NCBI GenBank assembly: GCA_027858915.1
Contig: JAQIBT010000040.1
Location: 1-45,741 of the forward strand
Reading direction: 5' to 3'
Length of the DNA stretch: 45,741 bases
Source of the DNA: Salinisphaera sp.
Lineage (GTDB): Bacteria; Pseudomonadota; Gammaproteobacteria; Nevskiales; Salinisphaeraceae
The position numbers and the translations under genes are program-made. Positions within the stretch are counted from its first letter, which is position 1. Every line of letters starts with the position of its first letter. A model generated the notes under the pieces. That model had not been told where the DNA came from. It worked only from the letters and a program-made list of their open reading frames with translations, and made no database searches. Shown one piece after another: positions 7,064 through 26,805 of the stretch.

Positions 7064-7145
7064 CTAGTGTCCTGTCACGCGTATTTTGTCGCGTTCAGCG
7101 AGGCGGCGCGCGTGCGTGGCAAGGAGCGGTGCGCAGGCAATGGCC
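7064..7145. repeat. 82-bp inverted repeat, right copy
   Basis: Reverse complement of 1-82 with a single mismatch. In the left copy, tnpB follows the CTAG end after ten bases; here the sequence beyond the CTAG (below 7064) has no tnpB, so this copy is a solo end or what remains after loss of the ORF. Confidence 0.85.
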
Positions 7146-7320
7146 GTCGCCCTTGGCAAGCCGCCGCAACGCAGACCACGGGCGCGGGCAGACTCGCCCA
7201 TGTTTGATGATCAGGGCCACGGGAACGCTTGTGCGCATCAATCACAGCGTTACACTCGCTTGCCATAGTAGCGGGCTATGACGCGCTCGCGTGCCTTGTG
7301 CTTGACGCGGGCAGACGTTC

Positions 7321-7350
7321 TGAACACGGCAAAATACACGTGACAGACAC
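7321..7350. repeat. Decayed third copy of the repeat core
   Basis: TGAACACGGCAAAATACACG plus GTGACAGACAC-type sequence aligns with 49-79 in the same orientation as the left copy, with three substitutions and one missing base. Weaker similarity continues to the left (CGTGCCTTG against CGCGCCTTG). It lies just beyond the 3' end of livF. Confidence 0.6.
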
Positions 7351-7364
7351 GAGGAGGCTATTGC

Positions 7365-8087: not shown

Positions 8088-8878
8088 GCAGCAACCTCGT
8101 CATCGTCTTCATCCACGCCCAGGTAGGCTTCGATAACCTTGGGGTTGTTTCGCACCGAGTGCGGATCGCCTTCGGCGATCTTTTTGCCAAAATTGATCAC
8201 GACAATGTTGTCGGTCACGCGCATGACGACATTCATATCGTGCTCGACAAGCAGAACGGTAATACCGCTATCACGAATACCCAGAATGGTGTGATTCAGC
8301 TCGGCCGATTCCTGATCGTTCAGTCCAGCCGCCGGCTCGTCGAGAATCAACAGCTCCGGCGAGGCGGCAAGCGTACGCGCCATCTCCACCCGCCTTTGAA
8401 CACCGTAGGGAAGCGATGTTGCGACTTCGTTAGCGACATCAGCAAGATCAAGCCGCTCGATTATCTCCATGCAGCTTTCGCGCAGCGCGCGCTCTTCGCG
8501 CCGTTGCCCCGGCGTATTCAGCAGACTGGCCCACCATGTCTGCTTCGTGCGCATGTGCTGCCCGGCCAATACGTTCTCGAGCACGCTCATGCCGCTGAAC
8601 AGACGAATCGTCTGGAACGTACGAAGGATACCGCAGTCGGCGACCTTATAGGGCGGCAATCCACTGATTTCACGGCCTTTCCAGCGCACGGCGCCGTCGG
8701 TTGGCTTGTAGACACCGGTGATGATGTTGAACACCGTGGTCTTGCCGGCCCCGTTGGGGCCAATCAGCCCTACGATCTGTCCCTTCTGCACGCTGAAGTC
8801 CAGCCCATCGACCGCGCGCAGACCACCGAAGCTAATGCCGATATTGTCGAGCGTGAGTAGCGTGTCGGTTTCGCTCAT
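8084..8878 (-). CDS. livG: HAAT ABC transporter ATP-binding protein LivG, operon 1
   Basis: This 264-residue ATPase would pair with LivF on the cytoplasmic face of LivHM. Walker A is GPNGAGKTT, followed by the LivG-type FNIITGVYKPTDG. LRTFQTIRLF and QHMRTKQTWW are typical of this subunit, which has a longer helical insertion than LivF. Signature and Walker B appear as PYGVQRRVEMARTLA and LLILDEPAAGLND. The C-terminus ends in an acidic DEDDDE tract. It lies 10 bases downstream of livM. Confidence 0.93.
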   Translation of the reverse strand: MSETDTLLTLDNIGISFGGLRAVDGLDFSVQKGQIVGLIGPNGAGKTTVFNIITGVYKPTDGAVRWKGREISGLPPYKVADCGILRTFQTIRLFSGMSVLENVLAGQHMRTKQTWWASLLNTPGQRREERALRESCMEIIERLDLADVANEVATSLPYGVQRRVEMARTLAASPELLILDEPAAGLNDQESAELNHTILGIRDSGITVLLVEHDMNVVMRVTDNIVVINFGKKIAEGDPHSVRNNPKVIEAYLGVDEDDDEVAA

Positions 8879-8888
8879 TGGATTGCGC

Positions 8889-9815
8889 TCATTCGATGCG
8901 TCGGCGACGAGGCCAGATGCCCTGCGGACGGATCACCATCACCACGATCATGGCGATGCCGAAAACAAAATAACGGTACTGCGCCAGCTCCCGGAATACC
9001 TGCGGCACCACGAACATCAGCACCGTCCCCAGCAGCACACCCGGAATCGAGGCCTGCCCCCCCACCAGGACGATGGCAAAAAGGGTGACCGATTCGGTAA
9101 ACACGAAGGCACCGGGGCTGACCACCGCCAATTGACTGGCCAGCAGCGTGCCGGCCGAGCCTGCCACACCGGCACCCAGTGCAAAAGCCACTATCTTGTA
9201 ATAACGGGCGTTCACGCCGAGCGTGGTGGCCGCAAGTTCGTCTTCCTTGAGATAGCGAAATACGCGCCCTAGCCGGCTGTTCTCAAGATTGTTCATCAGC
9301 AGAAGAACCACACCCAGCAGCAGCCAACCAACCAAAAACAGCCCGCTCTGGGAGACAATCTGATAACCGAAAATGCTCGGTACGCCAATTCCGAATATTC
9401 CGTCGGGCCCGCCAGTCATGCCGGCCACGTTGTTGACCATCACCAGATGAAAAATCTGGCTGATACCGATGGTCGCCACAAGAAGATAATCGCCGCGCAG
9501 TTTGACAATCGGCGCGGCAAGCAGGCCTCCGACAAGAGCTGCCAGCACGACGGCAGGCACCATGGTCCAGAGGATGGGCCAGCCATACACAGTATTGAGT
9601 ATCGCTGTGGTATAGGCGCCAACACCGAAATACACCGCATGCCCCATATCGAACATGCCGGCACGCCCAAGCACGATATCCTGGCTCAGCGCCACTACGG
9701 CGTAGATCGAGAAAATGGACAGGATACTGATCCAGTTCGGCCCCAGCACCAGCGGCACGCCCAGGCCAATGATCCAGATCGCCGGGCCGATCCAGCGGTA
9801 GAAGACAGTCCTCAT
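8889..9815 (-). CDS. livM: HAAT ABC transporter permease LivM, operon 1
   Basis: This 308-residue integral membrane protein has about nine or ten hydrophobic segments. Family hallmarks are LSQDIVLGRAGMFDMGHAVY near residue 43, the LRGDYLLVATIGISQIFH stretch, the cytoplasmic EDELAATTLGVN loop that contacts the ATPases, and GGQASIPGVLLGT. Its ATG overlaps the livH stop by four bases, so the two permease subunits are likely made in equal amounts. Confidence 0.93.
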   Translation of the reverse strand: MRTVFYRWIGPAIWIIGLGVPLVLGPNWISILSIFSIYAVVALSQDIVLGRAGMFDMGHAVYFGVGAYTTAILNTVYGWPILWTMVPAVVLAALVGGLLAAPIVKLRGDYLLVATIGISQIFHLVMVNNVAGMTGGPDGIFGIGVPSIFGYQIVSQSGLFLVGWLLLGVVLLLMNNLENSRLGRVFRYLKEDELAATTLGVNARYYKIVAFALGAGVAGSAGTLLASQLAVVSPGAFVFTESVTLFAIVLVGGQASIPGVLLGTVLMFVVPQVFRELAQYRYFVFGIAMIVVMVIRPQGIWPRRRRIE

Positions 9816-10717
9816 ACCTTTTCCGCCACGCGTTCGCCGAGAATTCCGCTCGGTCGGATCAGCAGGATGGCAATCAACAGGCCAAACGTGATCGCCTGCT
9901 GCCAGGTACTGGAGATATAGCCGGCTGCGAGCGCATTGAACAGACCCAGCAACAACCCGCCCAACATAGCGCCCGGGATATTACCGATGCCGCCGATGAT
10001 GGCGGCGATAAAGGCGTTCAAGCCGTAGGTCCAGCCCATGTTGAATACGGCCTGGCGATAATAAAGCCCGATGAACAGGCCACCGATCGCGCCCAGCGCT
10101 GGCCCGAGAATGAAGACGCTGACAATCACACGATTGACGTTGATGCCCATCAGGCGCGCCGCGTCCTGATCGATGGCCGCCGCCCGAATCGCGGTGCCGA
10201 AGCGCGTGCGATTGACGTACAGGTAAAGCGCGGCCATCAGCACGAACGATACGACGATGATAAGCAACTGGGTGAAGGTGATCACCACGCCAGCAATATG
10301 CCAGCTCTTGCTCGGCAGAATTCCCTGCGGAAAGACCAGCGTCTGGGGGCTCCAGATAAGCATGATGCCGTTCTCGATCATCATCGAAGCGCCAAGCGCC
10401 GAGACCACAGCCGACAGACGGTGCGCATTACGCAGCGGTCGGTACGCGGCGAACTCGAGCAGTGCCCCGGCGCAGGAGATCGCCACAATGGCCACCACGA
10501 ATGCGAGCCCGACCACCCATGCCGCTGGCGAGCCGGTGGCGCCTCCCATGCTCGTGATGACCGTCAGGCCTATGAACGCACCGAGCACACACAGATCGCC
10601 ATGAGCGAAATTGATCAGCTTCAGTATGCCGTAGACCATCGTGTAGCCGAGCGCGATAAGGGCATAAATGCCACCCACCGTCAGCCCGTTCACGAGTTGT
10701 TGAGCAAACTCGCTCAT
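9812..10717 (-). CDS. livH: HAAT ABC transporter permease LivH, operon 1
   Basis: This 301-residue permease begins with the family pattern LVNGLTVGGIYALIALGYTM followed by VYGILKLINFAHGD. AIDQDAARLMGINVNRVI is the coupling-helix region, and IGGIGNIPGAMLGGLLLG is also typical. It has about eight membrane segments. It starts 32 bases after the substrate-binding protein gene. The organisation SBP-livH-livM-livG-livF is the classical order. Confidence 0.93.
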   Translation of the reverse strand: MSEFAQQLVNGLTVGGIYALIALGYTMVYGILKLINFAHGDLCVLGAFIGLTVITSMGGATGSPAAWVVGLAFVVAIVAISCAGALLEFAAYRPLRNAHRLSAVVSALGASMMIENGIMLIWSPQTLVFPQGILPSKSWHIAGVVITFTQLLIIVVSFVLMAALYLYVNRTRFGTAIRAAAIDQDAARLMGINVNRVIVSVFILGPALGAIGGLFIGLYYRQAVFNMGWTYGLNAFIAAIIGGIGNIPGAMLGGLLLGLFNALAAGYISSTWQQAITFGLLIAILLIRPSGILGERVAEKV

Positions 10718-10749
10718 GAAAGACGCCCCCGTTCGTCAGATGCCGTAGA

Positions 10750-11892
10750 TCAGCTGGATGCCGCGTCGGCGGGATAAACCGTCTTGTAGCTGCCGTCGGC
10801 CTGTACTTCAAAGGCCTGGAATGCGCTGCCGATGCGCTCTCCAGTCTTGGAGAAGGTGATCGGCCCGGTGATGCCCTGGAAGTTGTCGACCTTGTTATGC
10901 ATGTAGCTCATCACCTTGACCGGATCGAGACTCTTGGTCTGTTCAACGGCCTTCATGATCACGCGCATCCCGTCCGCGTTGGTCAACGTGTAGATACTGG
11001 GCGGAAGGGCGTCGTAGGCTTTCTTGTAGGCAGCAAGAAACTGCTTGGCTGCCGGATATGGCAGGTTTTCCGGCGCCGGCACATTGATGATAACCGAGCC
11101 CTTGGCAGCGCTACCGGCAATCTTGGCAAATGCCACGTTCTGATTGGCATCGCCACCGACGAACGGGACGTTCATCCCCAGCTGTGCCTCCTGTGAGCGC
11201 AGCAGACCGCCGTCCGAGTAATAACCCGAGAAATAGATTACATCGGGGTTCTTGGATTTGAGATCAGTAAGAACCGAGGTGAAATCCTGGGAGCCAGAGT
11301 TGATGTAGGCACGAGCGAGGACATTACCGCCTTCGGCCTTCACCGCTGTTTCGACTGCGTCGCCCAGGCCCTTGGCAAAACTCGAGTGATCAGAAATGAT
11401 CGCGATTTTCTTGTAACCCTTGCCCTTGACCAGGTACTTGCCAGTGAATTTAGCCTCGGCCGAGTTCGGCGGGGCGTTCCGGAAAAAGGTCTTGAAACCG
11501 CGCTTGGTCAGCTCGTCAGCCGTGCCGTCGCTGGTCTGGATGATGTTGGCGCGCGCATAGATCGGCTGAGCCGCCGATGCGGCGCCCGAGGTGTAACTGC
11601 CAATGACGGCGAATACGCCGGCGTTGGCCAGGCGACGTGCGCATAGCGCGGCCTGGGTGGCCTTGCCTTCGTCGTCACAGACCTGAACCTTGATCATCTT
11701 GCCGTTCAGTCCGCCGTCGGCGTTCTGCTGTTTGGCCAGCAATTTGACCGCCTTGGCAATACCCTGACCCTCGTTGGCATACTTGCCGGTGATCGGTGCC
11801 TGGACGCCGAACGTCACGCTGCCGGACGCTGCCGCAAGCGAGGAAAACCCGACCAGTGCCGCAGCAACCGCCCCCACGAATTCCTTACGCAT
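10750..11892 (-). CDS. HAAT periplasmic substrate-binding protein (LivK-like), operon 1
   Basis: This 380-residue protein is the extracytoplasmic receptor of the first HAAT transporter. Residues 1-23 are a Sec signal peptide (MRKEFVGAVAAALVGFSS, then LAAASG). The mature part begins VTFGVQAPITGKYANEGQ, as in Leu/Ile/Val-binding proteins, with VIGSYTSGAASAAQPIYA as the hinge strand around the ligand site. The two-lobed type I periplasmic-binding fold continues to the C-terminus. A GGGGA ribosome site lies about eight bases before the ATG. Likely ligands are branched-chain or other hydrophobic amino acids; the actual ligand cannot be read from sequence. Confidence 0.9.
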   Translation of the reverse strand: MRKEFVGAVAAALVGFSSLAAASGSVTFGVQAPITGKYANEGQGIAKAVKLLAKQQNADGGLNGKMIKVQVCDDEGKATQAALCARRLANAGVFAVIGSYTSGAASAAQPIYARANIIQTSDGTADELTKRGFKTFFRNAPPNSAEAKFTGKYLVKGKGYKKIAIISDHSSFAKGLGDAVETAVKAEGGNVLARAYINSGSQDFTSVLTDLKSKNPDVIYFSGYYSDGGLLRSQEAQLGMNVPFVGGDANQNVAFAKIAGSAAKGSVIINVPAPENLPYPAAKQFLAAYKKAYDALPPSIYTLTNADGMRVIMKAVEQTKSLDPVKVMSYMHNKVDNFQGITGPITFSKTGERIGSAFQAFEVQADGSYKTVYPADAASS

Positions 11893-12402: not shown

Positions 12403-13077
12403 TCACGTCTCGTTGGGCTGTGATGCCGCCGCTTCGCGCTGCGCTACGATCTGGCGCACGCCCTCGACAATCACATCCGGCGGCTGGGCGCCAGATGTCA
12501 GGTATTTGTCGTCAACAATGAACGACGGCACCGCGTCCACGCCACCGGCGCGAAAACGCTCGACCTCCTCGCTGACGGCTTCGCCGTGGGTGTCACCGGC
12601 CAGAATGTCGCGCACAGCTCCGCCATCCAGACCAACCGACTCGGCCACGCGGCTCAAGACCGCCGGATCGGTGGGGTTTTCTGCGTCGCCGAAATAGGCA
12701 TCAAAAAGGGCGAGGTTCATGGCCTGATCCTTATTGTGCAAGCTTGCATAGCGGAGTACGCGATGGGTATCGAAAGTGTTCCACGACCGCCGCTCGAGAA
12801 AATGCTCGAAGTGCAGGCCCAGTTCCTCACCCAGCGATTTCAACGCCTCCTGGCTGCGCAGAATCTCGGTCTCGCTCTTGCCGTACTTGCTCTTCAGGTG
12901 CTCGATCATGTCGCGCCCTTCCGGCGGCAGATCCGGATTCAACAGGAACGAATTCCAGTGGACATCCAGTTCCACCTCGCCGCGAAGCATCTCCTGTGCC
13001 TGCTGCAGGCGCGCAAACCCAATCGCACACCACGGGCATACGACGTCTGACACGAGATCGATTTTTACGCTGTTCAT
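12403..13077 (-). CDS. FrnE-type DsbA family oxidoreductase
   Basis: This 224-residue thioredoxin-fold protein has the active-site motif CPWC at residues 14-17 just after the first beta strand (KIDLVSDVVCPWCAIG). The helical insertion, the cis-Pro loop (VDAVPSFIVDDKY) and the ending GAQPPDVIVEGVRQI place it in the DsbA-like FrnE group, which is cytoplasmic and has no signal peptide. Members act as thiol-disulfide oxidoreductases or isomerases and in Deinococcus are linked to oxidative stress. It stands alone on its strand here. The ribosome site is weak (AAGATGAG). Confidence 0.9.
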   Translation of the reverse strand: MNSVKIDLVSDVVCPWCAIGFARLQQAQEMLRGEVELDVHWNSFLLNPDLPPEGRDMIEHLKSKYGKSETEILRSQEALKSLGEELGLHFEHFLERRSWNTFDTHRVLRYASLHNKDQAMNLALFDAYFGDAENPTDPAVLSRVAESVGLDGGAVRDILAGDTHGEAVSEEVERFRAGGVDAVPSFIVDDKYLTSGAQPPDVIVEGVRQIVAQREAAASQPNET

Positions 13078-14917: not shown

Positions 14918-16369
14918 ATGACAAAGCCCCTGTTAACAACCATGGGACTTGCCGGCGGGCTTTTTCCGCTTGTGGCCGATGCCGCGGAGTCGGCGAGCAA
15001 TCTCAACCTCACCACTGCATGGCCGGGTTTTCTGGCCGTGGGGATTTTTGTGGTTGCCTATCTACTGGTCGGACTCGAGGAATATACGGATCTGCGAAAA
15101 TCCAAGCCGGTGGTCCTGGCCGCGGGCCTGATCTGGATCCTGATTGCCGCCTACGTGCGGTTCAGCGGTGTGTCGGCGCCGGTCGAGGAAGTGCTGACCG
15201 AAACGGTGGGCGAATTCGCCGGATTGTTCCTGTTTTTGCTGGTCGCTATGACCTATGTCAACGCCATGACCGACCGGAATGTCTTTGGCGCCCTGCGAAG
15301 CTGGCTCTCGGCCGGTGGGTTTTCCTACCGTCAGCTGTTCTGGATTGTCGGTTTTCTTGCGTTCGTGCTCTCGCCTGTGATCGACAATCTGACAACTGCG
15401 CTGGTGCTTTCCGCCGTTGTTCTGGCAGTGGGCGACGGCAATCGGCGCTTCATATCGCTTACCTGCATCAATATTGTGGTCGCTGCCAACGCCGGTGGCG
15501 CGTTCAGCCCGTTTGGCGACATCACCACGCTGATGGTCTGGCAAACCGATGTGCTGAGCTTCGGCCAGTTCTTTAAGCTGTTTATTCCGGCGCTGGTCAA
15601 TTTCGTCGTGCCCGCTGCCATCATGTATCTGGCGGTGCCGCGCGGTGCTCCGGAATCCGACAAGAGCACGGCTTTTCTGCGGCGCGGTGGGTGGGCAGTA
15701 CTGCTGCTGTTCGCAGCGACGATCGCCACCGCGGTGGCGGGTCACAGCGTGCTCGATCTGCCGCCGTATATGGGCATGATGATGGGCTTGGCCTATCTCC
15801 AGCTGCTCATGTACTACCTGATGAAAACGGCGTTGAGAAAGGATGAAGCGCTAGCGGCTTACAAAGAATCGGACGAAATGCCGCCACCGGATCTCCTCCG
15901 CCATCAGGAGCGTGGCGAGAGTGCGCCGCGGTTCAATATTTTTGGCCATGTCGCGGAAGCCGAATGGGATACGCTTTTGTTCTTCTACGGAGTGATCCTC
16001 TGCGTGGGCGGCCTTGCCTTCCTGGGCTATCTTGCCGTTCTGTCGAACACGCTTTATCTGCAGCTGGGCGCGACCTGGGCCAACACCGCGGTTGGCGTAC
16101 TGTCGTCGATAGTCGATAACATTCCAATCATGGCTGCCGTGGTCAAGATGAATCCCCAGATGTCCGATGGCCAGTGGCTGCTGGTCACGCTCACCGCTGG
16201 CGTCGGCGGCAGCCTGCTATCGATTGGCTCGGCGGCCGGCGTAGCGCTGATGGGTCAAGCTCGCGGCTACTACACGTTCATGTCGCATCTGAAATGGACG
16301 TGGGCGGTCGCGCTGGGCTATGTGGCGTCCATTGGGGTCCATATGCTGGTGAACGCCGATACGTTCTAG
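14918..16369 (+). CDS. nhaD: NhaD-type Na+/H+ antiporter
   Basis: This 483-residue IT-superfamily antiporter would expel Na+ in exchange for H+ across the inner membrane. After a leading hydrophobic segment it shows about 11 to 12 more. Family signatures are FVLSPVIDNLTTALVLSAVV (TM with DN), NAGGAFSPFGDITTLMVW and a second inverted-repeat half with SSIVDNIPIMAAVVKM and VGGSLLSIGSAAGVALMG. NhaD is typical of halophilic and marine gammaproteobacteria. Together with the CPA1-type gene just upstream it forms a sodium-exporting pair. ACGGAG precedes the ATG. Confidence 0.93.
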   Translation: MTKPLLTTMGLAGGLFPLVADAAESASNLNLTTAWPGFLAVGIFVVAYLLVGLEEYTDLRKSKPVVLAAGLIWILIAAYVRFSGVSAPVEEVLTETVGEFAGLFLFLLVAMTYVNAMTDRNVFGALRSWLSAGGFSYRQLFWIVGFLAFVLSPVIDNLTTALVLSAVVLAVGDGNRRFISLTCINIVVAANAGGAFSPFGDITTLMVWQTDVLSFGQFFKLFIPALVNFVVPAAIMYLAVPRGAPESDKSTAFLRRGGWAVLLLFAATIATAVAGHSVLDLPPYMGMMMGLAYLQLLMYYLMKTALRKDEALAAYKESDEMPPPDLLRHQERGESAPRFNIFGHVAEAEWDTLLFFYGVILCVGGLAFLGYLAVLSNTLYLQLGATWANTAVGVLSSIVDNIPIMAAVVKMNPQMSDGQWLLVTLTAGVGGSLLSIGSAAGVALMGQARGYYTFMSHLKWTWAVALGYVASIGVHMLVNADTF

Positions 16370-16392: not shown

Positions 16393-17067
16393 TCAATCGA
16401 CTCCGCGATCATGACTATGGTCAGCTGCTGCAACCGGTGCCTCATCGCCGCCCGACATCGTGAAACCGCCGCGGCGCAGCACCATCGCGGTGTCCAGTGA
16501 GCTCTGGCAGAACGCCAGCACCTGATTGAATTCGGCCTCAGGCAGCTGTCGCACGGCGTCATTGCCGCGATAGATATTCAGCCATTTGCGATCGCGCTCG
16601 ATCATGGTCGGCAGGTGACCGATGCCCCAGTCCTCGAGCAAGGCCCATAGCCGCGGATTGAAACCGCGCACGAGACTGATCAGAAACGGGATCGGATCGT
16701 TACGAGCCAGCAACGAGGTGAGCCGCAGGATCAATTCAAAGGACACGGTCGCCGAGCCCTGCTCCATTGCCTTGAGCAGCGTTTTATCCTCCATATCCAG
16801 CGACGCGGCCAGCCCCTCCAGCGATAAGCCAGCGGTCACACGCGCGTCGTGAATCGCCGCACCGGCGCGCTGCATCCACGCCCGCTGCTCGGCCGATAGC
16901 GTCCGGCGTTGGGCCTGATCCAGAACCAGCGTGGTACCGATGCGCATCGTCATGCCGCCTACCCGACTCGCAAGCACACCAACAGCCGATTTCGACATAT
17001 TGACCGTGAAGTTCGATACGTGCTCGAACAGGTTTGCGCGCGTCGATTTGTCCGGGTCTCTTGCCAT
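16393..17067 (-). CDS. XRE-like helix-turn-helix protein, uncharacterised
   Basis: A 224-residue protein from ATG 17067 (the frame is open to 17115, but GGAG lies about 11 bases before 17067). Residues about 70-125 resemble a lambda-repressor-type HTH: AIHDARVTAGLSLEGLAASL followed by MEDKTLLKAMEQGSATVSFE. The flanking parts, including HVSNFTVNMSKSAVGVLASR at the N-terminus and a conserved-looking DWGIGHLPTMIERDRKWLNI near the C-terminus, do not belong to a domain I recognise. It converges on nhaD with a gap of 23 bases and has no obvious operon partner. A DNA-binding regulator is the best guess; its target is unknown. Confidence 0.65.
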   Translation of the reverse strand: MARDPDKSTRANLFEHVSNFTVNMSKSAVGVLASRVGGMTMRIGTTLVLDQAQRRTLSAEQRAWMQRAGAAIHDARVTAGLSLEGLAASLDMEDKTLLKAMEQGSATVSFELILRLTSLLARNDPIPFLISLVRGFNPRLWALLEDWGIGHLPTMIERDRKWLNIYRGNDAVRQLPEAEFNQVLAFCQSSLDTAMVLRRGGFTMSGGDEAPVAAADHSHDRGVD

Positions 17068-17317
17068 AATCGTTGGTGCTCCGACAGCGGTACGGGACGT
17101 ATCCGATCCGAGCATACCCAGTTTTACCGAGGGTTATCAGCGAGCGCGTGCGCGTCTCCAGCTGTTTGAAGGCAGCGATAGCCAGACACGCCTCCACCCG
17201 GCATCGCTGCTGCAGGCGAAAATGATCGTCCCAACGGGCCGTCTTTCAGTGTCGGCGTCGCCGTATGACGAGTGCGCAGTTGGCTCGCGGGCCGGTAAGC
17301 GCACGACGGCCACACGC

Positions 17318-17929
17318 TCACTTATAGAAGCGCTTCTTGAGCAACGCATTGATTTCATTAGACAGACCCACGAATCGCTGCGACGCATGCTGCATGATCT
17401 CGCTCAACACCGGGTCTGGCTCGCGCTCACCCAGCTCCTCGGTGAGATAACGCTCTTCATCCGCCGCCACCAATAACCGGATGAGCAAACCACGTTCGAA
17501 CACTTTGCCGGATGCGCCGACCACCGGCGCAAACATTTTCAGCAACCCTTTTTTCTGTGCTTCGTAGGCCGCCTTGAGGATTGCCGGCGTGTGATCTCGA
17601 TGGATGTCCAGCGCGGGAAACTGCTTGCTCAGCGTGGTCAGCCGCTTTCCTAGCCGACCACTATAGCCTGCGAAATCATCGACCACCCGTTGCACGTCAT
17701 CGGACTCGACCTTCACATAGAGGATCTCGTTGACCTTCGACAGCCCGTCGAGCTGGGTATAGAGCACGCTGTAGCCTTCATTGAGTTGATCACGCAGGGA
17801 ACCTGCGGACTCAGATCGCGCGTTCGACGATGCGCGCCCCCTAGTAGACGCACCGACGCCGATAGCGGCACAACCCGTCGATGCACAAAGCATCAACGCA
17901 AGTAGGAATAAGACGATCGACCGGCGCAT
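17318..17929 (-). CDS. Predicted lipoprotein, function unknown
   Basis: From ATG 17929 the product is 203 residues. It starts with an Arg-rich n-region, a hydrophobic stretch (SIVLFLLALMLCAS) and STGC, which works as a lipobox with the lipidated Cys near residue 20, followed by AAIG. The remainder is predicted mostly helical and charged, with segments such as YSVLYTQLDGLSKVNEILYV and EEINALLKK-type ends, and has no domain I recognise. The frame is open to 18022, but the signal sequence decides the start. It sits downstream of the radical-SAM/UdgX fusion with a gap of about 120 bases; a functional link is not evident. Confidence 0.7.
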   Translation of the reverse strand: MRRSIVLFLLALMLCASTGCAAIGVGASTRGRASSNARSESAGSLRDQLNEGYSVLYTQLDGLSKVNEILYVKVESDDVQRVVDDFAGYSGRLGKRLTTLSKQFPALDIHRDHTPAILKAAYEAQKKGLLKMFAPVVGASGKVFERGLLIRLLVAADEERYLTEELGEREPDPVLSEIMQHASQRFVGLSNEINALLKKRFYK

Positions 17930-18049
17930 GCGCAGTCCACAACTTGCCAAGCCTCCCAGCTTACGCCGGTCACAACCGCTTCGCTCAGTATCCGTACATG
18001 CACAAAGCTCAGCTCGTTTCAACGGAGCATCCCACGCTCCACAGTTCGA

Positions 18050-19345
18050 TCATATCGCTGCCGCAATCCTCAGATCGGCAACAAAACGGTCGAACGACTG
18101 GCCGGCTGTCGCATCCGAGCGCAACAGGAACGACGGATGCACGGTTACCCACAACTGGCGGCCCTTCCAGGCGATCGCTCGTCCTCGTTCGCGCGTCACG
18201 GCTACCCGGCGTTCCAGCAATGCACTGGCCGCGGTGCCGCCGAGGGCCATTACGACGTCAGGCGCCACACGCATAATCTCGGCATCCAACCACGGCCGAC
18301 AGGCCGCCACTTCGTGATAGTCCAGCTTGGCATGCAGTCGTTGCTTTCCTCGTGGTTCGAACTTGAAATGCTTGACCGCATTGGTCAGATACAACTGACT
18401 ACGATCCAGACCGGCCGCGTTCAATGCGCGGTCAAGCAGCTGCCCGGCCGGGCCGACAAACGGGCGACCGGCCAGGTCCTCGGCGTCGCCCGGCTGTTCT
18501 CCCACCAGCATGAGGCGGGCCTTTTGCGGACCTTCGCCGAATACCGTCTGCGTAGCCGGCCCGTATAACGGACAACCGCAACACATGGCGGCGCGCAACG
18601 ACAATTGCTCGAGCGCATCGGTCGACGGCTCGGCGCCAATAATCATCTGGGTGGATTGCCCCGCCGGCGCAAATCTCGGGGCTGCAGCACGCCGCGGCGA
18701 GGCATTGGTGATGCGTTTCGCCTGGCGGCGCTGTTCGGCCACCTCATCCCGACCGGCACGAATGCGTGCCATCGATAACTTGATGGTGCGATGGTCTTTT
18801 TCCGGCGCCAGATCGGCCAGTGCCACCTGCGTCGGCAATTCGATGTTGATGCTCAGACGATCAGCAAAACGGCCAGCGTCGGCAAGCAGCTGACCACCGG
18901 CATCGGGAATAGTCTTGAGATGAATATAGCCGCGAAAATCATGATCGACACGCAGACTGCGCGCCACTTCCACCAGCTGAGCCATCGTGTAGTCTGGCGA
19001 CTGGATCACACCGGAGGACAGAAACAGCCCTTCGATATAGTTGCGCTTGTAGAAATCCAGCGTTAGATCGACCACTTCTTTCGTCGTGAACCGCGCGCGC
19101 TGGACATTCGAGGAATTGCGATTGATGCAGTAGCTGCACTCGTAGATACAGAAATTCGTGAGCAGGATCTTGAGCAGCGAGATACAGCGCCCGTCCGGCG
19201 CATAGGCATGACAGATACCCGACCCTTCCGACGACCCCATGCCGCGCCCACCTACCGAGGAGCGTCGAGTGGTACCACTGGATGAGCACGAGGCATCATA
19301 CTTGGCCGCATCGGCCAGAATTTCGAGTTTCTTGAGCAGCTCCAT
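18050..19345 (-). CDS. Radical-SAM (partial)/UdgX uracil-DNA glycosylase fusion
   Basis: Numbering from the GTG at 19363 (437 codons), residues 7-250 match the first half of the putative DNA modification/repair radical-SAM family: MELLKKLEILADAAKYDASC, then TNFCIYECSYCINRN with the CX3CX2C cluster (C72, C76, C79), and RFAPAGQSTQMIIGAEPSTD. At about residue 250 (base ~18613) the protein switches to a UdgX-type domain: GEQPGD (288-293), the uracil-crosslinking loop as KQRLH (340-344, usually KRRIH) and HPS (409-411). In the usual arrangement the radical-SAM protein is about 400 residues and a second gene encodes a DUF4130 domain followed by UdgX. Here the second half of the radical-SAM part and the whole DUF4130 domain are missing, with the frame kept. 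UdgX covalently traps uracil in DNA. ATG 19345 matches the family start; neither start has a good ribosome site. Confidence 0.85.
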   Translation of the reverse strand: MELLKKLEILADAAKYDASCSSSGTTRRSSVGGRGMGSSEGSGICHAYAPDGRCISLLKILLTNFCIYECSYCINRNSSNVQRARFTTKEVVDLTLDFYKRNYIEGLFLSSGVIQSPDYTMAQLVEVARSLRVDHDFRGYIHLKTIPDAGGQLLADAGRFADRLSINIELPTQVALADLAPEKDHRTIKLSMARIRAGRDEVAEQRRQAKRITNASPRRAAAPRFAPAGQSTQMIIGAEPSTDALEQLSLRAAMCCGCPLYGPATQTVFGEGPQKARLMLVGEQPGDAEDLAGRPFVGPAGQLLDRALNAAGLDRSQLYLTNAVKHFKFEPRGKQRLHAKLDYHEVAACRPWLDAEIMRVAPDVVMALGGTAASALLERRVAVTRERGRAIAWKGRQLWVTVHPSFLLRSDATAGQSFDRFVADLRIAAAI

Positions 19346-19439: not shown

Positions 19440-20156
19440 CTACATCCCCATGTAGGCCTTGCGCACGTCCGGGTCGTTGGCGACCTCGCGTGATGGGCCT
19501 TCGCTGTGCAGCCGTCCTTCGGCCAGCACATAAGCATAGTCCGACAGCGCCAGCGCCAGATGCAGGTTCTGTTCGACCAGCACGAGGGTGAGACCGTCGT
19601 TCTTGAGATCGGCCAGCGTGCCGAAGAGCTGTTGGGTCAGCAGCGGCGATAGCCCCAACGAGAGTTCGTCAATAATCAATACCTTGGGTGAGGCCATCAA
19701 CCCGCGGGCCACCGCGAGCATCTGCTGTTCACCTCCGGAAAACGTACCGGCCTTCTGCTTGCGGCGTTCTTTCAGACGCGGAAAATAGGTAAAGACGCGC
19801 TCGAGGTTGGCCGCGTAATCGGGGCGCGCCCGTGCCGTATAGGCGCCCAGTTCTAGATTCTCCTCGACCGTCATGTCGTTGAACAGTTGCCGCCCTTCCG
19901 GAACCAGCACCAGGCCGCGCGCAGCTTTTTGGTAAGCGCTCAGCCGAGTCACGTCTTCGCCTTCGAAACGCACACGCCCGCTCCATACACGGATGCTGCC
20001 CAAAGCCGCGCGCAGCAACGTGGTCTTGCCGGCACCATTGGCGCCCACCAGCGTAGTCAAGCGTTTGGGCATCACCGCGACGCTTACGCCCCAGAGCACC
20101 TGCAGTTCGTCGTAGCCAGAGACGACATCCTCGAGTTCAAGTAGTGCCTCGCTCAC
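19440..20156 (-). CDS. livF: HAAT ABC transporter ATP-binding protein LivF, operon 2
   Basis: This 238-residue ATPase is encoded last in the second HAAT operon. Walker A is GANGAGKTT, the signature FSGGEQQM, and Walker B reads VLIIDELSLGLSP, with Leu where the family usually has Pro after Glu. It resembles the operon 1 LivF only at family level, so the two operons are old paralogues or separate acquisitions rather than a recent duplication. It overlaps the livG stop by four bases. Confidence 0.92.
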   Translation of the reverse strand: MSEALLELEDVVSGYDELQVLWGVSVAVMPKRLTTLVGANGAGKTTLLRAALGSIRVWSGRVRFEGEDVTRLSAYQKAARGLVLVPEGRQLFNDMTVEENLELGAYTARARPDYAANLERVFTYFPRLKERRKQKAGTFSGGEQQMLAVARGLMASPKVLIIDELSLGLSPLLTQQLFGTLADLKNDGLTLVLVEQNLHLALALSDYAYVLAEGRLHSEGPSREVANDPDVRKAYMGM

Positions 20157-20908
20157 TTCTGCTCCATCAGCCGACTGGCCAGATCTGGGTCCCCCAGATA
20201 GGCCTCGATCACCCGTTCGTCGTGGGCGATTTCCTCGGGCGTGCCTTCGGCCAGTTTTTCGCCGAAGTTCAATACCATAATGCGGTCGGACAACGACATG
20301 ATCACCTGCATCAGATGCTCGATCATCAGAATCGCCACCCCGCTCTCTTCACGAATACGTCGCACGACCGCAATCATCCGTTCGGCCTCGGTTGGGTTGA
20401 GTCCAGCCAGGGTTTCGTCGAGTAGCAGCAGACGTGGCTGCCCGGCCAGCGCCCGCGCAATCTCCAGACGTTTCTTGCCGGCCAGATTGAGCGTGCCGGC
20501 CAGTACGTGAGCCCGGTCGATTAGCTCGACGGTCTTCAGACTGTCGCGGGCGGCCGTGGCAGCCTCCTTCAACTTGAGCTTCTGCGGGCCGAAACAGGCG
20601 CCGACGATCACATTGTCCAGTACCGTCATATCGTTGAGCGGCTTGACGATCTGATGGGTCCGCGCCAGGCCGCGGTGGACCACGCTGTAGGGCGCCATAC
20701 CGGTAATCGCCTCGCCCTGCAGTGCGACCCGGCCAGTATCGGGTTTGATCACGCCGTTGATGAGGTTGAACAGCGTCGTCTTGCCGGCCCCGTTGGGCCC
20801 GATGAGGCCAAATATCTGGCCTTCTTCGATCGCGAAACTGACGTCGTGCACCGCACGCACGCCGCCAAAACGCTTGCCCAGATGTTCGACTTCCAGCAGC
20901 GCGCTCAC
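20153..20908 (-). CDS. livG: HAAT ABC transporter ATP-binding protein LivG, operon 2
   Basis: This 251-residue ATPase has Walker A GPNGAGKTT, then LFNLINGVIKPDTG, the Q-loop region ARTHQIVKPLNDMT, signature-like LNLAGKKRLEIARALA (Leu-Ala-Gly-Lys instead of LSGGQ, as is common in LivG) and Walker B LLLLDETLAGLNP, with Thr where Pro is usual. The MIEHLMQVIMSLSDRI segment is typical of the subunit. Start and stop overlap neighbouring liv genes by four bases each. Confidence 0.92.
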   Translation of the reverse strand: MSALLEVEHLGKRFGGVRAVHDVSFAIEEGQIFGLIGPNGAGKTTLFNLINGVIKPDTGRVALQGEAITGMAPYSVVHRGLARTHQIVKPLNDMTVLDNVIVGACFGPQKLKLKEAATAARDSLKTVELIDRAHVLAGTLNLAGKKRLEIARALAGQPRLLLLDETLAGLNPTEAERMIAVVRRIREESGVAILMIEHLMQVIMSLSDRIMVLNFGEKLAEGTPEEIAHDERVIEAYLGDPDLASRLMEQK

Positions 20909-21882
20909 TCGATCACCCGGCGCAGCCGCGGCAGATGGCGATAGACCCAGCCCATGAAACCTTCCGGCAGAAACAGCACGATCAGCAGCAACAGGACGCC
21001 GGCCACCACTAGCTGAAACTGCGAAAATGTCGAGGAGACGAGCAGAAAGCCGCGCAGCTGTTCATAGGCGAACGCACCGAGTGCGACGCCGATCACGGTG
21101 CCCTGGCCACCGAGCATGAGCATGACGATAGCCTCGATCGACAGCGTGAGGTCGAACGCCTGATCCGGCAGAATCACGCCGTTCTTGAAGAAGAACAGCG
21201 TGCCGGCCACCGCCGGAATAAACGCCGAGATCGCATAGACCAGACTCTTGTACCGGGGCGTTCTCACGCCCAGCACCATCGCCGCGTCCTCGTCCTCGCG
21301 GATAGCGAAAAGGCCCAGACCGAAGCGCGAATTCTTGATCGCCAGACTCAGCCAGAGCGATAGCCCCATCAACACCACAATCGCGAAATAGGCCAGCCAC
21401 AGGGCATGCCGAGCCCCGCCCAGCGCGTTGAAGCTGGAAAACGATAGGTACATGCCGCTGGCACCGCCAAACGGCTCGAAATTGGTCACGAATGCCTTGA
21501 CCGCTTCATTTACGCCGATCGTGGCAAGCGCGAAATAGGCCCCGCGCAGCCGGAGGATGCCGGTGCCGAGAATGAATGCCAGCAGGCTCACCACCACACC
21601 GGCAATCAGACACGCCGGCCACAGCGACCAGCCCAACACGTTGACCACATACAGGCCGATATAGCCGCCAAGGCCGAAGAATGCGATATTGCCGAAATTG
21701 ACGTAAGCGGTGTAGCCGATCATCAGATTCAGGTTGGACGCCAGGATGATGTAGACCGCGCCCAGTAGCAGGTTCTCGCGCAGTTCCAGATTGCCGGTCA
21801 GCGCCGGCACCAAGGCGAAGGCTAGAGTCGCCAGCAGGATGATCCAGAAAGTCGGTCGTTTGAGGATCACTTGCGACCCCAT
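20905..21882 (-). CDS. livM: HAAT ABC transporter permease LivM, operon 2
   Basis: This 325-residue permease carries LASNLNLMIGYTAYVNFGNI, LRLRGAYFALATIGVNEAVK, the ATPase-contact loop REDEDAAMVLGVRTPRYK and GGQGTVIGVALGAFAYEQLR. It has about nine or ten membrane segments. The gene overlaps livH by 16 bases and livG by four. Confidence 0.92.
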   Translation of the reverse strand: MGSQVILKRPTFWIILLATLAFALVPALTGNLELRENLLLGAVYIILASNLNLMIGYTAYVNFGNIAFFGLGGYIGLYVVNVLGWSLWPACLIAGVVVSLLAFILGTGILRLRGAYFALATIGVNEAVKAFVTNFEPFGGASGMYLSFSSFNALGGARHALWLAYFAIVVLMGLSLWLSLAIKNSRFGLGLFAIREDEDAAMVLGVRTPRYKSLVYAISAFIPAVAGTLFFFKNGVILPDQAFDLTLSIEAIVMLMLGGQGTVIGVALGAFAYEQLRGFLLVSSTFSQFQLVVAGVLLLLIVLFLPEGFMGWVYRHLPRLRRVIE

Positions 21883-22742
21883 TTGAAGGCCAGCAGTCCG
21901 GCCGGAAACAGCACCAGGATGATCACGAACAGAGTGAACTCGATCACTGGCGTCCAGCTAACGTTGACGAACGGTGCGGTGACGCCCTCGATCAGGCCCA
22001 GCACGATGCCACCCAGCATCGCCCCGGCCGGATCACCCAGCCCGCCGAGCACGACCACAACGAAACTTTTCAGTTCGTAATTCGCGCCCGAAAGAATCGT
22101 GAATGGGAACAGGGTAGCGATCAGCACGCCGGCGCCGGCGGCCACCGCAATACCAATGCCGAACGAGATCGCCAGCACCCAGCGGGTATTGATTCCCATG
22201 AGCTCGGCGGCGGCGCGATTGTTGGCTACCGCTCGAATCGCCTTGCCCAGGCGCGTGTGATAAAGCAGCCCATAAAGCAGTGTCGCCAGAATCACTGCCA
22301 GCACGGCGGCTACGATCTGGGTGCCGGGAATCGTGTAACCGTGCATGCTGATGGCTAGCTGTGGCACGCTGACGTCGACGTTGTACGGGCTGGTAGTCCA
22401 TACGGCAGTACCCACGCCGATGATGATCATGTTCACGGCAAAGGTCGCTAGCAGCGTCATCAGATCGGAGCTGCCGATTACCCGGTGCACGGCGATCCAG
22501 TACACGAGTACGCCAAAGACAAACCCGCCCAGCAGCACCGGCACGATGGCCAGATACGGATTCAATCCGACGGCGGTGGTCAGCAGATATAACGAGAACA
22601 TGCCAAGCGCGATGGTGGCGCCGTGCATGAGGTTGATCACGTTCATGACGCCGAAGATCAGCGTCAGCCCAATCGCCGCCAGGCCGTAGATTGCACCCAC
22701 CAACACGCCGTTGATCACCGATGCGGTGAGATCAAAAATCAT
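21867..22742 (-). CDS. livH: HAAT ABC transporter permease LivH, operon 2
   Basis: This 291-residue permease opens with VINGVLVGAIYGLAAIGLTL and FGVMNVINLMHGATIALGMF, a close family pattern. The coupling region is RAVANNRAAAELMGINTRWV, and VVLGGLGDPAGAMLGGIVLG follows. It begins 54 bases after the substrate-binding gene and has about eight membrane segments. Confidence 0.92.
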   Translation of the reverse strand: MIFDLTASVINGVLVGAIYGLAAIGLTLIFGVMNVINLMHGATIALGMFSLYLLTTAVGLNPYLAIVPVLLGGFVFGVLVYWIAVHRVIGSSDLMTLLATFAVNMIIIGVGTAVWTTSPYNVDVSVPQLAISMHGYTIPGTQIVAAVLAVILATLLYGLLYHTRLGKAIRAVANNRAAAELMGINTRWVLAISFGIGIAVAAGAGVLIATLFPFTILSGANYELKSFVVVVLGGLGDPAGAMLGGIVLGLIEGVTAPFVNVSWTPVIEFTLFVIILVLFPAGLLAFKWGRK

Positions 22743-22796
22743 CAGGAAAATCCGTGGATATGGCGCGCCGGCATCAAATCCGGCGCGCCCGTGTCG

Positions 22797-24017
22797 CTAC
22801 TGATGGTAGGTGGTCAGCGGAAAAACCAACTTCGCGTTGGCTGCGGATTTCGGCCACACAACCTTGCTGTGCAGCTTGCCGTCGTCGCCCTTCTGCCACT
22901 GCGCCAGCACCATGTCGTGGCCGACTTGCAGGCCGTGGTCCTGCTTGCCGTCGGCGAACTTGATATGACCATAGGCGGTGGTGGCATCCATGGCGTTGAG
23001 TGCCTTGGCCACGGCCGGCGTCTTGATCGAGCCTGCCTGTTCTATGGCGTGCTGGAGCACCAGACCGGCCGCATAGCCGCCGGCGGCGTGATAGCCCGGC
23101 AGCGTGTTGTATTTTTTCTGAAACATCTCCCGGAACTGTTCAGGTGTGGGTCCGAAATCCGGTTTGTAGGCCACCGTCGGCTCCCACTGAGACGGCACCG
23201 TAACGCCGCGGGCTGCCTTGCCCAATGACGCAAACTTGGGGATATCCGGCGCTACCAGCAGCGAGATGAATTCGAGATTTGATTTCTTGTCGTAGAGCTG
23301 ACGTGCCAGCGTGCTGCCGTCGGCATAGTGGCCACCGCCGATCAGAACGTTCGCCCCGGACGACACGATCTTGTTGATAACCGGGCCGAAGTCGGTGGTA
23401 TTGGGCGCGTAGGACTCGGTCAGGACGACATTCAAACCCATGGACTTGGCGGCCTTGGCCGCGCCGTCCGCGGCACCCTTGGAGAAGCCGTCGTTGGAAT
23501 ATACCAGTGCAATTTTGGCATTGGGATCCTTCGACTTGATGGCCTGAAGGGCGCTGGTCAGATACTCATCCGCCGGCGTATACATCTGAAACAGATAGCG
23601 ATTGCCCAGCTTGTAGGTCTTGCCCTCGGCAGCGCCGGTCGTGATCATGATCTTGCCGAACTGCTCGGAAACCACGGCAGCGGTCGAGGTGAGTCCCGAG
23701 GAATACGGGCTGAACAGAAAATCGGCGTTGTCCTGCAGAATCAGCCGCGTATATAACTGCTGTACGCGTCCGGCCGAGGACTGATCGTCATAGTGCTTAA
23801 GCGCAACCTTGTACTGCGTGCCGCCGGCCTTGATGCCGCCGTCGGCGTTGACCTGATCACGCCAGAGCTCGAAACCGCGCAGCTGCGGCGCAGCATCGGC
23901 GTTGAGCTTGCCGGTTTCTGAAGTCGTAAAACCAATCGTAATCGTTTTCTGGGCCAACGCCATGCCCGGCAAAATTACCCCAAGCGCCAGCAAAACGCCG
24001 GCGAACATTTTGTACAT
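22797..24017 (-). CDS. HAAT periplasmic substrate-binding protein, operon 2
   Basis: From ATG 24017 the product is 406 residues. GGGAG lies eight bases upstream, and the signal peptide MYKMFAGVLLALGVILPG ending MALA decides this start (the frame is open to 24197). The mature protein begins QKTITIGFTTSETGKLNADA and continues as a type I periplasmic-binding fold. FLFSPYSSGLTSTAAVVSEQ is the hinge and ligand strand, and LPGYHAAGGYAAGLVLQHAI lies in the second lobe. It belongs to the amide or branched-chain amino acid receptor family but is clearly different from the operon 1 receptor, so the two transporters probably take different substrates. Confidence 0.88.
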   Translation of the reverse strand: MYKMFAGVLLALGVILPGMALAQKTITIGFTTSETGKLNADAAPQLRGFELWRDQVNADGGIKAGGTQYKVALKHYDDQSSAGRVQQLYTRLILQDNADFLFSPYSSGLTSTAAVVSEQFGKIMITTGAAEGKTYKLGNRYLFQMYTPADEYLTSALQAIKSKDPNAKIALVYSNDGFSKGAADGAAKAAKSMGLNVVLTESYAPNTTDFGPVINKIVSSGANVLIGGGHYADGSTLARQLYDKKSNLEFISLLVAPDIPKFASLGKAARGVTVPSQWEPTVAYKPDFGPTPEQFREMFQKKYNTLPGYHAAGGYAAGLVLQHAIEQAGSIKTPAVAKALNAMDATTAYGHIKFADGKQDHGLQVGHDMVLAQWQKGDDGKLHSKVVWPKSAANAKLVFPLTTYHQ

Positions 24018-24275
24018 CGCTAATCTCCCACTGATTAATATATCTATGTTCAACTTAAGCAGGCGAGAAGGGCAATTGGCAATAAGTCGATTACTCTGTC
24101 GCATGCCTTGCATGCCGCACCCGGCAAGACGGAGAATGATGGCGTGGCGCTGACCCAGCGACATCCGGAGGCCAACATGCGAAATCCGTACAACCATGGT
24201 CTTCTAGACGTCGGCGGCGATCGTGGCTTTTCGTGCGGCGCGGCGTACGGCTCAGCACGCGTCGTTGGGTAAGGC

Positions 24276-25214
24276 GTGGCGAATACGTCTAATGCCGACC
24301 ACACGCCACCCCCACTGCAACACGGGCCGCATACGTTTGATCAGTTTTTAACCACTATTGTTCATACGCTGAATGGCCTCTGGTCCGAGTTTGTAACACA
24401 GCTACCGTTCCTGGGTATTGCGTTTGCCATTATCGCGCTTACCTGGCTGGTGGCTTGGTTCGCCCGTGGCGTCGGCCGACGTTTTGCCGGCGAGCGCGCG
24501 CGTCCATCACTGCTACATCTAATCGAACGTCTGCTGACGCTGTCGATCTGGGCTGCCGGCCTGCTGCTGGCCGCAGTCGTGGTGTTCCCGGGCCTGTCGC
24601 CGGCCAAGGCGCTGGGCGGCCTGGGGTTGCTATCGGTAGCCGTGGGGTTTGCATTTCGCGATACCTTCGAGAATTTCTTCGCCGGCATGCTGATGCTCTG
24701 GAAATATCCTTTCGAGGACGGCGATTTCATCCAATCGAACGAGATCATGGGTCGCGTTGAGCACGTCCACGTACGCATGACAACCATTCGGAAGACCACT
24801 GGCGAACTGCTGCTGGTGCCCAACAGCCGATTATTCAAGAACCCGGTTGAAGTGCTCACCGACCAGCCCGAGCGCCGAATCTCGATCATGACCGGGGTGG
24901 CCTATTCGGTCGATCTGGCAGCCGCGCTCGCTGTCATCCGCGAGGCCGTGCTGGCTTGCGAACATATCGTTGCCGTGCGCCCGGTGCAGATCTTCGCGCA
25001 GGGTTTTGGCGCCAGCGGCATGGATATCGAAGTGACCTGGTGGTGCGACTCGACGCCGTTGGGCGTTCGCCGCTCGACCAGCGAAGTGGTGGTTGCGGTC
25101 AAATACGCGCTCGATGCTGCTGGCATGGAAATCCCCTTCCCATACCGCACCCTGACCTTCAGCGAGCCATTGCAGATTGTGACAGCGCGCGACGATGATG
25201 AGGCGGATAGCTAA
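24276..25214 (+). CDS. MscS-family mechanosensitive channel
   Basis: This 312-residue small-conductance channel begins with GTG (24276) after a GGTAAGG stretch. Three hydrophobic segments lie at about 45-67, 80-104 and 108-140; the last is the Gly/Ala-rich pore helix (ALGGLGLLSVAVGFAFRDTF). The MscS beta domain follows (YPFEDGDFIQ, TTIRKTTGELLLVPNSRLFK), then a cytoplasmic alpha/beta domain. It would release solutes on hypo-osmotic shock, which fits an organism facing changing salinity. It is divergent from the second HAAT operon. Confidence 0.9.
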   Translation: MANTSNADHTPPPLQHGPHTFDQFLTTIVHTLNGLWSEFVTQLPFLGIAFAIIALTWLVAWFARGVGRRFAGERARPSLLHLIERLLTLSIWAAGLLLAAVVVFPGLSPAKALGGLGLLSVAVGFAFRDTFENFFAGMLMLWKYPFEDGDFIQSNEIMGRVEHVHVRMTTIRKTTGELLLVPNSRLFKNPVEVLTDQPERRISIMTGVAYSVDLAAALAVIREAVLACEHIVAVRPVQIFAQGFGASGMDIEVTWWCDSTPLGVRRSTSEVVVAVKYALDAAGMEIPFPYRTLTFSEPLQIVTARDDDEADS

Positions 25215-25255
25215 GGCGTCTTGGTCATCGCCGCGATCTTGGATAGGCTGACGTC

Positions 25256-25675
25256 ATGCTGCATATTTCCGATACCGTCAGCCTGGCCGACAGCGAATTC
25301 AGCTGGCATGCGGTACGCGCACAGGGGGCTGGCGGTCAGAACGTCAACAAGGTGGCCTCGGCAATCCATCTGCGCTTCGATATCCAGGCTTCGTCGCTGC
25401 CCGATGTCTATAAGCAGCGACTGCTTGCGCGCTCCGATCAACGGATTACTTTAGGGGGCGTGATCGTGATCAAGGCACAGCAGTTTCGCAGCCAGGATGC
25501 CAACCGCGAAGACGCGCTGACCCGCCTCGCGGCGTTGATCCGATCTGCCGGCAGCACGCCAAAGAAACGCAAACCCACGCGCCCTTCGCGCAACGCACGC
25601 CGAAAACGCATGGATAAAAAGACCCAGCGGGGACGGCTCAAAGGGCTGCGCAGCAAGGGAATTCCCAAGGACTAG
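25256..25675 (+). CDS. arfB: Alternative ribosome-rescue hydrolase ArfB (YaeJ)
   Basis: This 139-residue protein has the class I release-factor-like domain with the catalytic GGQ at 26-28 (RAQGAGGQNVNKVASAIHLR). It ends with the basic, Lys/Arg-rich tail (KKRKPTRPSRNARRKRMDKK) that inserts into the mRNA channel of stalled ribosomes. It frees peptide from ribosomes stalled on non-stop mRNA. The stop codon overlaps the end of the convergent araC-type gene by four bases. Confidence 0.94.
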   Translation: MLHISDTVSLADSEFSWHAVRAQGAGGQNVNKVASAIHLRFDIQASSLPDVYKQRLLARSDQRITLGGVIVIKAQQFRSQDANREDALTRLAALIRSAGSTPKKRKPTRPSRNARRKRMDKKTQRGRLKGLRSKGIPKD

Positions 25676-26595
25676 ATAGCCGCGATCTCGACAATCTCTG
25701 CATCGAGGGCAGGCGCCACACCGAAATAACGTTTGTACTCGCGGCTGAACTGGGACGCGCTCTGATAGCCGACGGCCATCGCCGCCCCGGCTACATTCTC
25801 GACGCGCGACGCCAGCAGATGACGCGCATGTAGCAGCCGGATGCGTTTCTGATACTGGAGCGGCGACAAGCGTGTCACCCGCTTGAAGTGGGCATGAAAA
25901 GTCGAAGCGCTCATATGCGCCTCGGCGGCCAGCCGGTCCACTGCCAGCGGCATCGTAAAATCGGCGTGCAGACGATCAATCGCCCGCGCCACCCGCGCGT
26001 AAGCGCCCTGATCCTGTACCAGTTGCCGCAACAGACGGCCCTGCGGCCCGCGCAGGGCTTCGAACAATACTTCACGCCGCCGCGACGCACCCAGTATCGC
26101 AGCGCTCTGGGGGTCATCCAGACAGGCCAGCAAACGTTCCAGTACATCGAGCATCGCAGAATCCAGACTCACCGCTGCCATCGGCAAGCTATCGGCTCCG
26201 CGCTCGTCGGGCTGTGGGTTGGGCATGGCTGCTGCGAGCTCGGCCAGCACCGCCGGCTCGATCCGCATCACCGCACCGAGCAACGGATGGTCCGCATCGG
26301 CGCCGGTTTCGCATTCGAACGGCAACGGCATAGCCTGCACCAGATAATGGCCGGCACCGTAGTGGATCACCCGGTCGTCCAGATAACCGGTCTTCTTGCC
26401 CTGGGCCACAAATATCAGACCCGGCGCGTAGACCAGCGGCGTCCGAGCGCGGCTGGCATGCGACGCCATCAACGTCACACCCTCGATATTCGAAGCGGTA
26501 TAGCCGTCGCAGCGCACATGCGGAGCAATAAGCTCGCCCAGACGAGCATAGCGATCGGCAAGCTCGTGACGGGCTGAAGTAGCGACATGCATCAT
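25672..26595 (-). CDS. AraC-family regulator, divergent from alcohol dehydrogenase
   Basis: From ATG 26595 (AGGAG eight bases upstream; open to 26613) the product is 307 residues. The N-terminal two thirds match the AraC_N cupin-type domain (PLVYAPGLIFVAQGKKTGYL, then YGAGHYLVQAMPLPFECE). The C-terminal ~100 residues hold two HTH motifs (LAVDRLAAEAHMSASTFHAH and NVAGAAMAVGYQSASQFSRE) and the RYFGVAP ending. E. coli YqhC, which has the same architecture, activates the aldehyde reductase gene yqhD beside it. The divergent alcohol dehydrogenase here suggests a parallel role in aldehyde response. Confidence 0.9.
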   Translation of the reverse strand: MMHVATSARHELADRYARLGELIAPHVRCDGYTASNIEGVTLMASHASRARTPLVYAPGLIFVAQGKKTGYLDDRVIHYGAGHYLVQAMPLPFECETGADADHPLLGAVMRIEPAVLAELAAAMPNPQPDERGADSLPMAAVSLDSAMLDVLERLLACLDDPQSAAILGASRRREVLFEALRGPQGRLLRQLVQDQGAYARVARAIDRLHADFTMPLAVDRLAAEAHMSASTFHAHFKRVTRLSPLQYQKRIRLLHARHLLASRVENVAGAAMAVGYQSASQFSREYKRYFGVAPALDAEIVEIAAI

Positions 26596-26805
26596 GCCAA
26601 TGGCTCCTATCAAGAGCTTTCAGAACTGCGACAGATTGTGCATGAAAAACGCCGCCATGATCGGTTTTAATCGCGCCATCCAGAGAATCAGGCATGGATC
26701 GACGAGGATTACCCATAGCCGGACATCGACTTTGGTAGGAGTATGCACGCCAGATAAGCCATCCGTCGTTTTAGCAGTTTCAAATACTTTCCAATGGAGG
26801 CAGCC

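Follow-up and report, generated by a model that had tools for sequence, protein, structure and literature searches.

In the draft genome of a Salinisphaera strain, a single gene on the minus strand (18050..19345) encodes a 431 aa protein that joins, in one reading frame, the N-terminal portion of a radical-SAM protein with a putative role in DNA modification or repair to a complete UdgX domain. With a probability of roughly 0.7, we interpret this gene as the product of a deletion specific to the strain or species, which would have occurred in one Salinisphaera lineage and left UdgX carrying a radical-SAM stub. The window analysed (45,741 nt) spans contig C44 from end to end; this contig belongs to a 4.33 Mb draft that comprises 169 contigs, is 99.6% complete and has an estimated contamination of 2.48%.

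The frame is uninterrupted and ends at 18050, stop codon included. It begins with an ATG at 19345; an alternative GTG start lies upstream at 19363 and would give a protein of 437 aa, but it is the ATG that can be aligned with the relatives. The NCBIfam profile TIGR03916, which describes putative DNA modification/repair radical-SAM proteins linked to uracil-DNA glycosylase (UDG), matches aa 4–244 and exceeds its curated cut-off barely, and from a partial match (356.8 bits against 343.5; profile positions 2–230 of 415 only). The UdgX profile TIGR03914 matches aa 206–427 with 266.4 bits against a curated cut-off of 189.95. The two matches overlap at aa 206–244, which looks like profile overrun, because similarity to intact relatives switches at aa 244/245: that to intact radical-SAM genes ends at aa 244, and that to intact UdgX begins at aa 245. 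The junction therefore lies at 18614/18613, close to where the sequence-only reading had placed it (near base 18613), with aa 1–244 encoded at 18614..19345 and aa 245–431 at 18053..18613, both on the minus strand. The description given there, of one frame holding a radical-SAM front and a full UdgX domain, is borne out by these matches, and all of the motifs it named are present: the CX3CX2C cluster motif (CIYECSYC, aa 66–73) in the first part, and GEQPGD, the R-loop KQRLH and HPS (within HPSFLLR) in the second. The DUF4130 domain has no match in the fusion protein with the NCBIfam and Pfam profiles (TIGR03915, PF13566).

When compared with TIGR03916 proteins, the fusion retains profile positions 2–230, the CX3CX2C motif and strands 1–5, but lacks positions 231–415, which correspond to helix 5, strand 6 and a helical C-terminal part. 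The fold of an intact relative was predicted with AlphaFold2 from the radical-SAM protein of genome G003 (31 sequences, mean pLDDT 81). Its predicted strands are at aa 59–61, 106–110, 140–145, 163–166, 230–236 and 261–266, with helix 5 at 243–257, and the model resembles the solved structures of HydE, MiaB, viperin and biotin synthase (Foldseek E-values of 1e-6 to 1.2e-5), with TM-scores of 0.35–0.4 by query length. On this predicted, not solved, structure, aa 1–244 of the fusion cover barrel strands 1–5, while strand 6 (aa 261–266) lies beyond the junction; the cut after aa 244 falls at the start of helix 5, inside the barrel and not at a domain boundary. The lost C-terminal part is weakly similar to ComEA and RuvA (E-values of 0.03 and up), which we take to be helix-hairpin-helix DNA-binding proteins. 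A model of the fusion itself was built on radical-SAM rows only (A4), and its UdgX half, which had no aligned relatives, was ignored. Strand 5 is unformed in this model, an observation that is only suggestive given the mean pLDDT of 45 and an alignment differing from that of the G003 model. Since strand 6 of the barrel and the helical C-terminal part are gone, the predicted fold indicates that the stub is probably incapable of the original radical-SAM chemistry. It may still bind an Fe-S cluster.

UdgX is known as a stand-alone enzyme. As the Mycobacterium smegmatis protein (MsmUdgX) has been studied as a single domain, the parts lost from the fusion should be dispensable for its UdgX domain. 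The fusion matches MsmUdgX (TIGR03914; PDB 6AIL, 6IO9) with a phmmer E-value of 1e-54, and differs from it by the 244 aa radical-SAM remnant at its N-terminus, the solved MsmUdgX chains being 205–229 aa long. All 11 residues that were checked are kept (MsmUdgX E52, Q53, D56, D59, F65, N91, K94, R107, H109, H178 and R184), their roles being those described in PMC10359453 and PMC10776899. In PMC10359453, motif A is given as GEQPG (containing Q53), and R107 and H109 are assigned to the R-loop; the fusion has GEQPGD together with the equivalents of R107 and H109 within KQRLH; the uracil-crosslinking His recognized in the sequence-only reading is thus retained. Motif B appears there as HPS(S/A)(L/V)(L/V)R and reads HPSFLLR in the fusion, with F at the published S/A place. 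Among relatives this position is occupied by Y, F, H, S or A, and the strict pattern fails for them as well. That reading had also remarked that the R-loop has KQRLH instead of KRRIH, but the loop proves to be ordinary: KQRLH is found in Salinisphaera sp. Q1T1-3 too, and across 16 aligned rows its second residue may be Q, T, K, R, L, I or F, which rules out an unusual R-loop. Judging from its conserved residues, the fusion protein probably works as an ordinary UdgX, excising uracil and becoming covalently attached to DNA via the R-loop His. With the usual partner, a two-domain DUF4130-UdgX protein (TIGR03915 plus TIGR03914), it shares the UdgX half but not the DUF4130 half; the protein encoded at locus L117 has both domains.

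The genus-level comparison covered 61 genomes, the strain's own included, with 13 other Salinisphaera genomes and one genome of the same family (G015). In 12 of the 13, and in G015, the radical-SAM and UdgX matches lie apart on one contig, in the same gene order and strand as the two halves of the fusion. The radical-SAM frame is whole in 11 of these 12 and interrupted by a contig end in G006. The thirteenth genome, G010 (81% complete), has no radical-SAM match and only a weaker UDG match. Loci were measured in the 11 genus members other than G006 and in G015, where the radical-SAM protein is 423–425 aa and the DUF4130-UdgX protein 483–496 aa long (n = 12). The DNA between the points equivalent to the junction amounts to 1430–1537 bp in five of these relatives and 2982–3042 bp in the other seven, and consists of the radical-SAM remainder and the DUF4130 part, with two further genes in the seven. 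The missing piece, put at well over 1 kb in the sequence-only reading, can therefore be specified as 1.43–1.54 or 2.98–3.04 kb, depending on the relative. The two extra genes, which lie between the radical-SAM and DUF4130-UdgX genes (7722–8390 and 6869–7645 on the minus strand of L117), vary in their presence even among members of a single genus; the first has no NCBIfam or Pfam match and presumably resembles SatD, and the other is a DUF3307 gene. Four of the five members of clade B (G001, G005, G007, G009 and G013) and G003 have the long version, G013 having the short one, and for this reason a deletion of about 3.0 kb would be likeliest.

Such a deletion would have started from a radical-SAM gene, followed by two more genes, as in many relatives, and then by the DUF4130-UdgX gene. 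An illegitimate event would have cost the radical-SAM gene its last 181 codons and the DUF4130-UdgX gene about 300 codons, along with all of the DNA separating the two. The reading frame would survive with a chance of one in three, leaving a single gene whose product would be a working UdgX with a radical-SAM stub attached.

The strain's own draft was searched for the missing pieces using intact proteins as queries. The radical-SAM protein of G003 matched the fusion gene with its aa 1–245, and its aa 246–425 were not found elsewhere in the draft (next match, E-value 0.03). An intact DUF4130-UdgX protein matched the fusion gene (query aa 262–492), a gene on C128 that scores over the family-4 UDG cut-off and under that of UdgX, and one further sequence with an E-value of 0.06; its DUF4130 part was not found elsewhere in the draft. 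The DUF3307 gene was also not found in the genome, using a query that was positive in 7 of 15 genomes, its source included. On the left side, downstream of the fusion gene, is a gene for a 234 aa protein with no family match (17318..18022, minus strand). Its homologue was seen in the regions of 2 of the 13 relatives, G001 and G005, where it lies downstream of UdgX and beyond an MFS-like gene, and a homologue of 16393–17115 was seen in 10 of the 13. On the right side (24276..25675, plus strand) are a gene for a mechanosensitive channel and a small gene, 25256–25675, whose homologues lie next to that for the radical-SAM protein in 4 and 8, respectively, of the 13 regions; the regions are unequal in length, and all of these synteny counts are lower bounds. 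Between the fusion gene and the channel gene sits a branched-chain transporter cassette (19440–24197), a relative of which (77% DNA identity) is found at another chromosomal place in G007. Since the missing stretches are absent from the draft and the flanking genes are where they would be expected, a true deletion is likelier than a misassembly.

Matches to the radical-SAM half were found in 17 other genomes among the 61, and three wider surveys, in which at most four candidates were scored per genome, gave matches in 10 of 369 genomes of the class (E ≤ 1e-30), 83 of 398 of the phylum (E ≤ 1e-50) and 25 of 385 from the class of G443 (E ≤ 1e-80). A search for the same junction in related genomes, as had been proposed, returned none: the radical-SAM half was matched in 118 distinct genomes, and in 0 of these did the match continue through UdgX; two parts fused through a long spacer might, however, show as two matches. 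Frames were checked directly at 80 named loci, the best of at least 590, and the C-terminal half of the radical-SAM protein is present in all 80. UdgX matches occur at 77 of these 80 loci, in 0 of the 77 within the radical-SAM frame, and lie downstream of it, in agreement with the expectation that the usual pair is a full radical-SAM gene and a UdgX gene. Another radical-SAM match is located in a short, 278 aa frame (G841:C174:3109-3801), which may reflect truncation or a contig-end effect. The literature searches returned no paper with both UdgX and radical SAM and none naming TIGR03916, and the titles and abstract beginnings of the matches listed contain no account of a fusion of this kind.

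In the radical-SAM half, 92 columns show conservation of at least 98% across 93 other sequences, and none of them is changed in the fusion. At columns invariant in 12 other rows from the genus and family, there are 2 departures in 170 (0–4 for each such row), and the UdgX half has 1 in 73 (0–4 for the others). Pairwise dN/dS values against the relatives are 0.08–0.14 for the radical-SAM half and 0.13–0.31 for the UdgX half, and are rough, dS being high (0.9–1.9). The nearest relative for the radical-SAM half, G003, is at a dS of about 0.9, and the deletion may be placed anywhere along the fusion strain's own branch. Replacements unique to the radical-SAM half of the fusion number five or six, against 0–17 in the relatives (5 against 3 for G003), and the fusion has the higher count in 10 of 12 pairings, where relatives with a close sister score low by construction. 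This excess could indicate mild relaxation. Clear decay of the radical-SAM half is not visible in the conserved columns or in dN/dS, which points either to a recent event or to some remaining use for this half.

The two halves differ in their phylogenetic placement. In the DNA tree, the radical-SAM half is the sister of G003 (98/97). Its DNA rejects a grouping with clade B (p = 0.004), for which the protein-level test is less clear (p = 0.042 with and 0.13 without outgroup rows); the DNA also rejects a grouping with clade A (p = 0.009), unlike the protein tree, which places it on the clade-A side (99/96). The UdgX half falls inside clade B (97/96), and its grouping with clade A is rejected (p = 0.017). 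The rpoB tree, with all rows in frames matched to that of the fusion strain, makes the strain the sister of clade B (100/100) and rejects its pairing with G003 (p = 7e-6). Among the flanking genes, 16393–17115 and 24276–25214 (98/96 for the latter) put the strain with clade B, and 25256–25675 puts it on the other side (98/97). The tree of 12403–13077 is weak, that of 25672–26613 has clade-B rows only, and 14918–16369 has too few rows. When the fusion is excluded, the N-terminal half of the G003 radical-SAM protein is placed on the side of clade B, a grouping with clade A being rejected at p = 0.020, and for its C-terminal half a grouping with clade B is rejected (p = 0.009). At the G003 locus (L112 4092–5366 and 6956–8410), the radical-SAM gene thus looks mosaic, its halves not falling on the same side of the genus tree, and the UdgX forms a long branch. 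Some recombination has touched the radical-SAM gene, and from these trees the recipient may have been G003 rather than the fusion strain.

These data bear on how the join arose. It is unlikely that the contig is a misassembly or strain chimera that misjoins two genes present at full length in the organism. A draft in 169 contigs with 2.48% contamination leaves room for such an error, and the nearest relatives do differ between the two halves, but the missing parts are on no other contig of a genome that is 99.6% complete, the reading frame is kept, and the order, strand and flanking genes are consistent with simple loss. The longest exact word common to both sites (60 bp on each side) is 7–9 bp in the 12 relatives, too short to mislead an assembler, and no repeat is seen in the relatives that could account for a collapsed assembly. 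Words of this length equally rule out, for the sequences of the relatives, a deletion between long direct repeats. A chimera of two genomes would need more than one join, given that the channel gene groups with clade B just as UdgX does, although the small gene 25256 falls on the other side. Rather improbable, too, is that recombination with a related species, and not a plain internal deletion, supplied the radical-SAM half and made the join. The G003 pairing of this half, set against the clade-B affinity of the UdgX half and of rpoB, points in that direction and is not predicted by a plain deletion, and the transporter cassette just upstream, with its G007 relative at another place, could be read in the same way. 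However, the DNA of the radical-SAM half rejects clade A as well as clade B, the protein and DNA trees disagree, and the mosaic G003 gene may be the odd one, in which case the half found in the fusion strain would be vertically inherited.

The sequence-only reading had contrasted a chance deletion that kept the frame with a selected minimal architecture, and of these the deletion is favoured, the fusion being seen in one genome only. In a selected architecture, the stub would be a working accessory module, for Fe-S, DNA or partner binding or for SAM chemistry, coupled to UdgX, which we hold to be just as improbable as recombination. The kept frame and CX3CX2C motif, the 92 unchanged columns and the low dN/dS would all fit, and coupling is plausible because the two genes adjoin in relatives; the absence of clear decay likewise counts against the deletion account, inasmuch as it is expected for a recent event or a retained use. 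Weighing against selection are the restriction to one genome among those searched, the loss, in the predicted fold, of the sixth barrel strand together with the C-terminal part and, suggestively, the unformed strand 5. A functional minimal protein, with the five-strand remnant completed by the N-terminal helix of UdgX, or retained to bind Fe-S or a partner, and acting in cis with UdgX, is more doubtful still; if it were real, the radical-SAM and UdgX proteins would work on the same DNA lesion.

A natural fusion would be a hint that the radical-SAM protein and UdgX act together, but here the hint is weak, because it comes from an apparent deletion in one genome that breaks the radical-SAM core. 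If the gene arose by deletion, its better use is as a natural experiment: a strain seemingly without the radical-SAM enzyme and DUF4130 that still has UdgX and a family-4 UDG.

Elsewhere on the contig, the cassette at 19440–24197 is one of two different cassettes for ABC transporters of the branched-chain amino acid type, the other being at 7365–11892, 7.5 kb away on the same strand. A putative IS4/5-family transposase gene (2772–3632, plus strand), with a DUF4096 match, lies near the left contig end.
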